Part shown: piece after piece, positions 1 through 3,114 of the stretch
Position numbering within the stretch: the first letter of the stretch is position 1
Layout of the letters: the number at the start of each line of letters is the position of its first letter
DNA from: Planctomycetota bacterium
Lineage (GTDB): Bacteria; Planctomycetota; JAJSAM01; JAJVHW01
Length of the DNA stretch: 44,840 nt
Assembly: GCA_022072415.1 (NCBI GenBank)
Contig: JAJVHW010000067.1
Span: forward strand, 1 to 44,840
Direction of reading: 5' to 3'
The notes under the pieces: model-generated
What the model was told of the DNA's origin: nothing
Database searches by the model: none
Seen by the model: only the letters and a program-made list of their open reading frames with translations
Position numbers and translations under genes: made by a program

Positions 1-36
1 GGGCGGCCGCGACCAGCGCCGCGGCGGTTGCGCCTC

Positions 37-1026
37 TCACCGCGCCGCGCCGACGCCGGACGTGCGCGGCGGCGCCGCCGGACGCACGGTGAACGCGTGC
101 GGGAAGTGCCGGCCGGGGCACTCGGTGCCCTTCACGTCGCCGTGCATCAGGATCTGCGACTCCGGGATCCCGCAGTGCGTCATCAGGAACGCGCAGAGGC
201 GCTCGAGGGAACGCATCTGGAGCGCGCTCGGCTTCGTGCGGTTGAAGTCGCCGACGAGCACGATCCCGATGCCGTGCTCGTTCATGTAATTCGACGGCCC
301 CGGCGTCTGCGCGTGCGCGCCGACGAGCTGCCGCTTCCAGCGGTAGCCGACTTCCACGTGCCCGTCGGGCGTGCCCGTGCCGTTCCCGATCACGAAGTCG
401 TAGCCGAGTCCGTCCCAGCCCTTGTCGCGGTGCCAGCGGTCGATCTGCGCGGCGCTGCCGAAGGCGCTCGCGGAGTGGTGGATCACGATGTGCTTCCACG
501 CGCGACGGAGCGGCACCGACCACGCGGTGCGCTCCGCGGGCGTGGGGTCGTTCTGCGACGGCTGCGGCGCGGGCTCCCCGGCGAGCACCGGCGGACGCGG
601 CGACGTGGAGGGCGGCGGAGGCGCGGGAATCCAGACCGGGGCAGAGCTCCCCGCCTGCGCCTCCTCCGCGGCGCCCTCGGACCACGCGGCGCGGATCGTC
701 CCCGCGTCGCGAGACGACACGAACACGTCGTCCTCGCGGAGCGACGCGCCGTCGGCGAGGTCCACCGTGCGGCCGCGGACGCTCGCGATCGCGGTGCCCG
801 CGAACACGAGGATCCGCGAGCCCGCCGGGGACTCGAGCGTCGCCTTGCCGCCCGCGACCGACGCGCGGAGCCCGAGCGACCGCGCGATCTCGGACGACGC
901 GACCCAGGGCGAGGGAGGGCGGACTTCGACATCCGTAGAAGCCGCGCCGGACGACGCGCACCCTGCCGCGAACGCGGCCGCCGCCAGCGCCGCGAACGCG
1001 ACGAGCGAGGAGCCGGGGACGCGCAT
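37..1026 (-). CDS. N-acetylmuramoyl-L-alanine amidase, lipoprotein
   Basis: This 329-residue protein is predicted to cleave the amide bond between muramic acid and the stem peptide of peptidoglycan. The ATG at 1026 was chosen because it gives a clean lipoprotein signal: MRVPG, a hydrophobic Ala-rich stretch, then lipobox AAGC with Cys23 as the lipidated residue. Residues 40-112 resemble a copper-amine-oxidase N-terminal-like domain (beta-rich, SSEIARSLGLRA), often found on envelope amidases. A Pro-rich linker (about 130-165) leads to an Amidase_2/PGRP fold, with IVIHHSA (His183-184), GAHA (His238) and the C-terminal MHGDVKGTECPG (His295, Cys303). These carry the expected zinc ligands and are characteristic of the family. 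It is transcribed away from the structured-RNA region. The family call is firm; attachment to the outer or inner membrane is inferred. Confidence 0.88.
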   Translation of the reverse strand: MRVPGSSLVAFAALAAAAFAAGCASSGAASTDVEVRPPSPWVASSEIARSLGLRASVAGGKATLESPAGSRILVFAGTAIASVRGRTVDLADGASLREDDVFVSSRDAGTIRAAWSEGAAEEAQAGSSAPVWIPAPPPPSTSPRPPVLAGEPAPQPSQNDPTPAERTAWSVPLRRAWKHIVIHHSASAFGSAAQIDRWHRDKGWDGLGYDFVIGNGTGTPDGHVEVGYRWKRQLVGAHAQTPGPSNYMNEHGIGIVLVGDFNRTKPSALQMRSLERLCAFLMTHCGIPESQILMHGDVKGTECPGRHFPHAFTVRPAAPPRTSGVGAAR

Positions 1027-1475
1027 GGGACCGCCTTCCGGCGACCGGCCTCCGCGGGGAACCGCGGGGACCGGGCGCACGCTGATCGAACGGGAGACAC
1101 GGAGATGGCCGACGGGACGGCCCTCAGAGCCATCCGTCCCGCCGGACCGCGGCAGGCACCATCCCTTGGGGACGTATGCCCGTGCCCCGCATTGTGTGGG
1201 AGCCCCGGGGCGTCCGTCAAGTGCCCGGACGCCGCCGCGGCGGGTGTGCCGCCGGCGACGCGGCGTCCCCGGCCGGGGCGACCGCATGTGAGCCCGCGGA
1301 TTTCCGCAGATTTCTTCCCGCTCGGCGCGGCCCGTCGGGACCGGGTCGGCTCCCGCCCCGGTGGAGAAACCCTCCGGACCCGTCACGCTCGCCGCGGGCG
1401 GTTCCCCACCGTCGGCACGGCTCTCACCGCTTCTCCACAGCGGCGGTGGAGAACATGTGTGCGTAATTCGGCCCC
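1027..1475. other. Intergenic region upstream of the structured RNA
   Basis: About 450 bases lie between the amidase start and the promoter at 1476. Open frames cross it on both strands, but none has a family signature, a ribosome binding site or a believable start, so I call no gene. The only structure I can defend is the set of TTCTCCAC-type octamers near the right end, listed separately. The amidase promoter must lie in this stretch on the minus strand, but I could not identify it. Confidence 0.5.
1431..1453. promoter_or_regulatory. Dyad TTCTCCAC-N7-GTGGAGAA, operator-like or DnaA-box-like
   Basis: TTCTCCAC (1431-1438) and GTGGAGAA (1446-1453) form a perfect 8-bp inverted repeat with a 7-base spacer, 22 bases upstream of the -35 element at 1476. 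A third copy, GGTGGAGAA, lies at 1360-1368. TTCTCCACA (1431-1439) differs at one position from the DnaA-box consensus TTATNCACA; the other two copies differ at two. Either a dimeric repressor or activator site or weak DnaA boxes would fit. Confidence 0.4.
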
Positions 1476-1503
1476 TTGAAACGTGTTGCGACGTCGCTAC
1501 GAT
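1476..1503 (+). promoter_or_regulatory. Sigma70-type promoter TTGAAA-16-TACGAT
   Basis: TTGAAA (1476-1481) and TACGAT (1498-1503) are separated by 16 bases, a near-consensus housekeeping promoter in otherwise very GC-rich DNA. The predicted start point, about 1510, falls directly before the 5' strand of the long-range helix that closes the structured RNA. That match is why I pair this promoter with the RNA. Confidence 0.6.
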
Positions 1504-1509
1504 GTGCCG

Positions 1510-2610
1510 CAGGTCGGTCGGGCGTGCCGGAGCATCCGAGACACCCCCGCTCGAGAGACGCAGTTCCTTGAAAACCCGGTGCCGGGAGCGCGACCGCGGG
1601 CGACCGCGGACGCAGGAGGGTTCATCCCCTCCGGCTTCCGGACTCTGCGGGGCGCGCCGGCGCTCTGCGGAGGGAGCACCGGGAGGCGCCGGAGGCGCCT
1701 CGAACGGTGCAGGTAAACCCCATGGGAGCCGCGGATCTCTCCGAGATCCGCAGGCCCGCGCGCCGAGAAGGACCTCGAGATGCCGCCCCGGGTGACCGCG
1801 CAAGCGGCGGCCCGTGAAGAAGCATGCGGAGGGACGTGCGAGGACGCCGGTCCTCAGCCGCGACGCGCGGGAGACGAGCTCCGGAGGGGGGACGCCCGAG
1901 GGCATGGACCGCGGCAGGCGTACGACGCAGCGGTCAGGACCAAGGCTCGTCCGGTCAGGCGTGGCTGCGTGGCTCTCCTCGTGTTCCTCAGAGCTCGGGG
2001 AGCAGACACTCGTGCCGCAATCGACCGGGGCTCGGCGGAAACGCCGGGCGGCCCGTCCGGACAGGTCTTCGAGGCGGAAGGAACCGGCCGTGGCGCGGCC
2101 TCCCGGGGAAACCCGGGCGGGCAGCGCGCGCAACAGGGAGCAACCCGCCGTGGGGGAGAGACACCCCGGGGGCGGAACGTGCCGGGGAGTGGCATCCCCG
2201 GGTGAAGCGGACCTCTGCGCGTACGTCACGGACGGGCCAGCGAGAACCCCAGGAGGGGAGTCCGGGCCGGCAGGCTCGGACGCCCCCGCGGTGGACGCCC
2301 CGAGAGGGGCCCAAGCCTGAGGGAGCCGTCCGCACCGCCGGGTGCGGACTGACCGGTCGGCGGAAGACCTCATGGTCGTCGAGACGACGCAGAGGGAGCG
2401 GCCAAGCCAACAGGCCGCTACGCCGGGCGGAGAGAGCTCCGGGAGGACGGGCAACCCATGGAGGGCAGGACGGAGGGCGGCGACGCTCTCCGGACGAGCC
2501 GCGGTCGGCGAGAGACCCTGAAGGGGCGATGGACGCACGGAACCTGCCCGACCGACTGACCGGCAGCTCAGGCCCGTCTCACCGCAAGGGAAGGCGGGCC
2601 TGTTCGATTC
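1510..2610 (+). ncRNA. Candidate large structured noncoding RNA, about 1.1 kb, unrecognised class
   Basis: No protein family is visible in any frame here, although GC richness keeps long frames open on both strands. Evidence for RNA: (1) GTCGGTCGGGC at 1513-1523 is exactly complementary to GCCCGACCGAC at 2546-2556, with G-U pairs extending both ends, so the first and last parts of the transcript can form a closing helix. A nested GTGC/GCAC pairing (1524-1527 with 2535-2538) fits beneath it. (2) Perfect local hairpins occur at 1731-1751 (9 bp), 1685-1699, 1796-1807 (GCAA loop), 2102-2117 (GAAA loop), 2182-2201, 2297-2310 (GAGA loop), 2328-2349 (9 bp) and 2398-2418. (3) A exceeds T about 3:1 by hand count over seven 60-base lines, as in RNAs whose loops are A-rich; flanking genes show no such bias. 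(4) A promoter sits just upstream and a terminator-like stem just downstream. I see no RNase P, tmRNA, SRP or rRNA core motifs. Confidence 0.6.
2569..2609 (+). terminator. Terminator-like hairpin at the end of the structured RNA
   Basis: CAGGCCCG (2569-2576) pairs with CGGGCCTG (2595-2602) across an 18-base loop and is followed by TTCGATT. The U-tract is weak, but the position fits: 12 bases after the closing helix of the RNA and before the -10-like element of the PTS gene. Confidence 0.4.
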
Positions 2611-2643: not shown

Positions 2644-3114
2644 GTGAAGCTGAGCCAGCTCCTGCCGGCCGCGCAGATCCGCGTGCCCCTGCTCGCGGCG
2701 TCGAAGCCCGACGCGATCGCCGAGCTGCTGACGCTGCTGCCCCTCCGCGACGACGCGCAGCGGGCCGAGGTGCGCGTCGCCGTCCTCGCCCGCGAGAGCG
2801 AGCTCTCGACGGGCATCGGACGGGGAGTCGCCATCCCCCACGGGAAGACGGAGGCCGTCGGCCGCCACACGTGCGCGTTCGGCATCTCCGCGGCGCCGAT
2901 GGACTTCGGCGCGATCGACGGGAAGCCCTGCACGATCTTCTTCATGTGCGTCAGCAACCCGAAGGACGCGAACGAGCACGTCCGCGTGCTCCTCCAGGTG
3001 GCGCGCATCCTGAACAACCCGGCCGCCCGGGCCGCCCTCGAGGCCGCGCGCACGCCCGAGGCGGTGCGGCAGGTGTTCCTCGACGACGAAGCCCAGCAGG
3101 TGCCGCCGAGGTAG
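2644..3114 (+). CDS. PTS EIIA type-2 domain protein (PtsN/fructose-like)
   Basis: A 156-residue stand-alone EIIA domain (PTS_EIIA_2). The motif GVAIPHGKTE around residues 60-69 carries the histidine phosphorylated by HPr in this family, and the ELLTLLP / LLQVARILNNP segments fit the fold. No EIIB, EIIC, HPr or EI gene is nearby, so a regulatory role like that of PtsN (EIIA-Ntr) is more likely than sugar transport; that is inference. The start is a GTG placed 6 bases after a -10-like TACAAA, so the mRNA may be leaderless. The next gene follows after 47 bases that contain a GC-rich inverted repeat. The family call is secure; the partner and the regulated process are unknown. Confidence 0.85.
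   Translation: MKLSQLLPAAQIRVPLLAASKPDAIAELLTLLPLRDDAQRAEVRVAVLARESELSTGIGRGVAIPHGKTEAVGRHTCAFGISAAPMDFGAIDGKPCTIFFMCVSNPKDANEHVRVLLQVARILNNPAARAALEAARTPEAVRQVFLDDEAQQVPPR

Follow-up and report, generated by a model that had tools for sequence, protein, structure and literature searches.

OLE RNA is about 600 nt long and occurs mainly in Gram-positive bacteria (PMC12054373, PMC9723947), and the GOLLD and ROOL RNAs are RNA-only nanocages (PMC12286853). OLE RNA, part of a membrane-associated RNP in Bacillota, is like the RNA described here a large stand-alone structured bacterial RNA whose biochemical role is unclear; however, our RNA occurs in other phyla, lacks an Rfam match, and no conserved cluster of partner genes was seen with it. 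GOLLD and ROOL share with it the size range, an elaborate fold with long-distance helices and the absence of a protein product. In contrast, they have been described in phage and prophage DNA, frequently close to tRNA islands, whereas our RNA is chromosomal and likewise without an Rfam match. A phage or prophage setting with tRNAs was not seen here: one pattern gave no match in viral contigs, the neighbours are ordinary chromosomal genes, and two tRNAs lie beside one copy (L161) only.

Our analysis concerns a window of 44,840 nucleotides from a Planctomycetota bacterium, the whole stretch of DNA that was analysed. Comparison with relatives supports the conclusion that positions 1513–2556 encode a conserved structured RNA, without transcript data. 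The recurrence of the locus with compensating changes, with no protein and no catalogued match, makes it look like an unnamed class of large bacterial RNA, and we are almost certain that the locus encodes a genuine structured RNA from a class not yet catalogued. No related RNA family was found; the broad kind, the large stand-alone bacterial RNA, is known. We favor the reading that it is a regulated, large, trans-acting noncoding RNA that serves as a compact scaffold, in a class outside Rfam present in Planctomycetota and Myxococcota; we put the probability of this reading at about 0.6, and the function is unproven. The features of the locus are as follows.

76..1026 (-): divergent neighbour, N-acetylmuramoyl-L-alanine amidase (Amidase_2; Pfam E=3.7e-17; synteny)
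1122..1129 (-): CUCUGAGG in the amidase mRNA leader, complement of the invariant RNA loop at 1986-1993
1431..1453: DnaA-box-like dyad TTCTCCAC-N7-GTGGAGAA, 5' of the promoter
1476..1503 (+): sigma-70-like promoter TTGAAA-16-TACGAT (-35 TTGAAA, 1476-1481; spacer 16 nt; -10 TACGAT, 1498-1503)
1510..2610 (+): large structured noncoding RNA gene, inferred transcript (from synteny of homologues, covariation, no conserved frame and no Rfam match)
1513..1523 (+): closing helix P1, 5' strand GTCGGTCGGGC, covarying partner of 2546-2556
1676..1710 (+): conserved hairpin of the 5' half, GCACCG...CGGTGC, with GCATC/GATGC and GTATCG/CGATGC in relatives (from alignments)
1975..2002 (+): hairpin with the order-invariant loop CUCAGAG (from nine order members and one other family)
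2136..2262 (+): stretch modelled by covariance model R1 for the family search
2145..2175 (+): core hairpin 1, CCGYY...RRCGG, with a GAG/GAG-type internal loop and an inner covarying stem
2182..2201 (+): core hairpin 2, CCGGGG...CCCCGG
2297..2466 (+): long-range 3' domain (from double-sided pair changes)
2546..2556 (+): closing helix P1, 3' strand GCCCGACCGAC, exact complement of 1513-1523
2569..2610 (+): terminator-like hairpin with TTCGATTC tail; stem CAGGCCCG/CGGGCCTG at 2569-2576/2595-2602
2644..3114 (+): downstream neighbour, PTS EIIA domain protein (Pfam E=4.3e-28; synteny)

Closing helix, internal helices and coding potential

A sequence-only reading of the window had proposed one large folded RNA with a promoter, a closing helix and a terminator-like end, and this proposal was supported by a conserved promoter position and by compensatory changes in the closing and internal helices. 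The promoter, the 11-mer GTCGGTCGGGC, its exact complement and the terminator-like stem are all where that reading had located them; the terminator hairpin begins 12 bases 3' of the closing helix, and its TTCGATTC tail is a weak U-tract. Most order-mates carry a hairpin with a similar tail at the RNA 3' end. The placement of the 11-bp complement at both ends, to which that reading gave weight, is indeed unusual, as only 37 of 20,000 shuffles (0.19%) gave one between 60-nt end windows, but it is not decisive alone; the decisive evidence lies in relatives, which keep the helix with different bases. The window pair GTCGGTCGGGC/GCCCGACCGAC is replaced in aligned relatives by GGTTGAGCG/CGCTCAACC, GGTTGGGCG/CGCCCAACC, GGTGGGCGAG/CTCGCCCACC and GGGCAAGGGC/GCCCTTGCCC, and among 23 distinct helices from two phyla, double-sided changes were present at all nine of nine positions. 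The strands of order members were placed by alignment, not by complementarity. In distant members, the 100% pairing of P1 is partly selected, because partners there were picked by complementarity.

Core hairpin 1 was analysed in 47 distinct sequences from two phyla, aligned without a structure model: 98.5% of cells were paired, compared with 80.7% after shuffling and 33–50% after sliding, the covariation score was 0.572 against 0.222 for shuffled sequences, and five of the ten pairs showed double-sided changes. In the 3' domain and its 3' flank, such changes were found at 31 of 63 pairs (seven sequences), compared with 14.0 after shuffling and 6–13 after sliding, a count somewhat favoured by the use of one alignment both to predict the structure and to score it. 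The 3' half of the RNA has a folding z-score of -4.3. Conservation at the DNA level is highest at 2136–2565, with shorter conserved islands 5' of that stretch. The GNRA hairpins reported near 1800, 2108 and 2302 are present in the sequence; however, some of the hairpins described as perfect (e.g. GAAA at 2108) are unique to this sequence rather than conserved, and the best conserved helices (2145–2175, 2182–2201 and 2297–2466) had not been singled out. The claim that A outnumbers T about 3:1 was overstated, since 1513–2556 contains 180 A and 94 T, a ratio of 1.9.

No conserved reading frame was found across relatives, where only 10–26% of indel runs have a length divisible by three. An antisense frame without stops spans 348 codons in the window and 377 in G001, and the other relatives interrupt it. 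A protein-coding reading was rejected, since the frame is interrupted and the indels are mostly not multiples of three. The long open antisense frame is explained by the GC-rich, T-poor sense strand. On the minus strand, a 980-codon frame (37–2979) is open across the RNA gene and is not conserved. Covariation of the closing helix and frame conservation had both been set beforehand as refutation tests, and the RNA reading survived both. The locus thus shows, at the level of sequence, three marks of an autonomous structured RNA gene: its own promoter, a covarying fold and no conserved reading frame.

Known RNA classes and repeated hairpins

At gathering thresholds, Rfam gave no match in the window and none to this RNA in 39 relatives; permissive thresholds gave no plausible match in the window (E up to 10) or in 16 relatives (E up to 1). 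The Rfam covariance models of OLE, GOLLD and ROOL RNAs did not match. A search of the open-access literature, limited to open papers, returned no description of this RNA. These results bear on the possibility that this RNA belongs with the large ribozymes or is distantly related to OLE, GOLLD, ROOL, a group I or II intron, RNase P RNA or tmRNA. The size, complexity and strongly conserved purine-rich segments of the RNA would fit such a relative, but the absence of a plausible Rfam match speaks against it, as does a setting with its own promoter and terminator rather than an exon context. Identity with RNase P RNA was rejected, since RF00010 was located elsewhere in eight of nine order genomes, including that of the window. 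We consider a relationship of this kind quite unlikely.

The short hairpins YYC-ANGA-GRG and CYC-UGRA-GRG recur within the RNA and are strongly enriched and strand-specific (126 occurrences against 5 expected, and 1 on the opposite strand). In repeating short hairpins of similar loop sequence, our RNA resembles sponge RNAs of the CsrB/RsmZ type, and the hairpins could be binding sites through which it sequesters a protein. CsrA sites require GGA in the loop. In contrast, the loop consensus of our RNA, ANGA or UGRA, has no invariant GGA (AUGA, ACGA and AGGA all occur), and long-range helices and a highly conserved core set it apart from CsrB/RsmZ, the best conserved parts lying outside the repeated hairpins. 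Protein sequestration is thus a very unlikely main role. The recurring hairpins, together with a second site matched by R1 about 200 nt downstream in some members, suggest that the RNA grew by repetition of modules, which is an inference.

Distribution and genomic neighbours

All eight searched relatives of the window's order carry the RNA. Nucleotide searches gave clear matches in every one of the four remaining members of the family and in another two families of the order, and R1, a covariance model of one 124-nt core (window 2136–2262), added the order members G006 and G008. Over the two phyla, R1 matched 28 of 392 Planctomycetota genomes at E<=1e-4 (34 of 392 at E<=0.01) and, among Myxococcota, 60 of 379 genomes at E<=0.001. 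The control phyla gave one genome in 297 each: the seed itself, a MAG labelled Vicinamibacteria, in the phylum of G398, and one weak match in the phylum of a Mycobacterium. In a collection of named genomes, 52 stretches matched a degenerate pattern, and 48 of them were confirmed by R1 or coincided with confirmed loci; these are mostly labelled Planctomycetota or Myxococcales/Kofleriaceae/Deltaproteobacteria and include the cultured Enhygromyxa salina SWB005, whose copy on contig NZ_PVNK01000114.1 adjoins a CBS-domain gene. The other four, in Mycolicibacterium, Mycobacterium, Acinetobacter and Fimbriimonadales records, were not confirmed by follow-up.

Most genomes carry a single copy, and some carry up to six diverged copies; the six copies of one genome are 71–87% identical where they can be aligned. 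Such divergence argues against recent transposition. A mobile element or protein-coding relic might be suspected from the multiple copies and from the long antisense frame open in the window. However, the copies are diverged and mostly single, indels break the frame, and no match was found in plasmid and viral collections, the viral contigs having been searched with one pattern; this explanation can practically be dismissed.

The length of the class ranges from about 0.27 to 1.45 kb: between the closing-helix ends, L145 measures 273 nt, L144 and L097 about 530 nt, and Kofleriaceae-type members 950–980 nt, while the RNA is about 1.05–1.2 kb long in the window's order and 1.45 kb in L133. In the paralogues L202 and L203, the only upstream sigma-54 site lies at -2114 and -2136 of the core, a hint of RNA forms over 2 kb. 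The minimal versions (L145, L144 and L097) adjoin Usp/GroEL, a CBS-domain protein and a bacterial microcompartment (BMC) shell protein. At L161 (437–613), the two adjoining tRNA genes are overlapped by a sub-threshold Y RNA-like (YrlA) match.

The order amidase, RNA, PTS EIIA is kept in the window's order wherever contigs reach, several genomes having MoxR and vWA genes further out, and the syntenic neighbour proteins are only about 38–75% identical within the order. One could accordingly take the RNA for a leader or riboswitch-like element that acts in cis on the downstream EIIA (ptsN) gene, which it precedes on the same strand in this order where the contig allows. Against this, a terminator-like hairpin separates the RNA from EIIA, the RNA, at over 1 kb, greatly exceeds known leaders in size, and free-standing copies exist in many other families. 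Outside the order, neither EIIA nor the amidase adjoins the RNA and no other gene family recurs as a neighbour, so that the constant place 5' of one gene family expected of a leader is seen only in the window's own order. A leader function is highly improbable. Rather, the mixed neighbours outside the order suggest that the RNA is a stand-alone gene, which appears, from its genomic context, to act in trans.

Promoters, upstream element and possible function

Promoters of the form TTGAC(N)-16..18-TANNNT lie at the same place in all eight order members examined, including the window. Consensus sigma-54 -24/-12 promoters stand at the 5' end of about 20 Myxococcota copies (L122, L105, L119, L123, L130, L144, L145 and others). 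Loci outside the order, 507 kb in all, contain 24 occurrences of TGGCAC-N6-TGCW, 22 of them upstream of the core and on the correct strand; one occurrence was found on the opposite strand. In Kofleriaceae-type members, a 16-bp P1 starts 13 nt 3' of the sigma-54 -12 element, and its 3' strand ends beside a TTTT run. Several Myxococcota members have a T-run 3' of the closing helix, which may double as a terminator.

A DnaA-box-like motif of the TTNTCCACA type, often a dyad, clusters 5' of the RNA promoter in both phyla and is rare elsewhere in the loci. Of the tabulated within-locus occurrences, 35 of 38 in Planctomycetota lie between -1500 and -500 of the core, and 20 of 35 in Myxococcota between -1000 and -500. 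The motif is 82–84 nt 5' of the -24 element in L105, L119, L135, L108, L117, L112 and L130. The motif or dyad was also observed 5' of the promoter in the window (1431–1453), L077–L080, L082, L105 and L119; the window's site is one of 17 DnaA-box-like sites in a 3.86-Mb genome. DnaA or another dimeric activator may bind the upstream dyad, the case for DnaA being a motif match only. A replication origin as the reason for the boxes was rejected, GC skew showing no switch in one contig and being ambiguous in another. Five contigs of G049 (C1, C4, C36, C39 and C48) contain TTATCCACA pairs in opposite orientation about 160–175 bp apart, possibly a dispersed repeat.

The loop CUCAGAG is invariant in nine of nine order members and one other family, while its stem bases vary. 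The extended CUCUGAGG motif has a single occurrence in each of the five genomes tested, always at the amidase-leader locus, and is also found in a third family. The amidase mRNA leader is therefore a candidate target of the loop in the window's order, inferred from complementarity at lower confidence. Covariation cannot support the pairing, because the complementary loops are invariant. The pairing also cannot account for what the class does in general, as nearly all members beyond the order lack the loop (present in 10 of 82 loci). One could nevertheless suppose that the RNA is an antisense-type regulator whose main job is to pair with mRNA targets and whose remaining fold is a carrier. The invariant loop on a varying stem and its complement in the amidase leader agree with this, but the rarity of the loop, the structural nature of the class-wide core and the single target make it unlikely.

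We favor the scaffold reading, in which the transcript would fold to form a compact particle, by itself or together with proteins, as an RNP or RNA oligomer. This role is inferred from the size, the fold and the lack of cis association, in the absence of transcript data. Synthesis of the RNA would be regulated, as the sigma-54 promoters of the Myxococcota copies and the DnaA-box-like site upstream in both phyla may indicate. In the window's order, one exposed loop may in addition pair with the divergent amidase mRNA leader and tune the amidase, which we infer with less confidence. More tentatively, and as a possibility only, the particle, RNA or RNP, could have a link with growth state or with the replication cycle, in an undescribed class of 0.27–1.45 kb (perhaps over 2 kb) with a common core, a regulated promoter (sigma-54 in many Myxococcota) and the DnaA-box-like site.

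Large structured RNA classes of unknown function are few in bacteria, and those studied have been surprising, as the nanocages and membrane RNPs illustrate. The RNA described here has a wide distribution in two phyla whose cell biology is known to be unusual, and is present in a named strain, Enhygromyxa salina SWB005. With a defined core, a promoter type, an upstream element and one candidate target, experiments on it can be designed directly.
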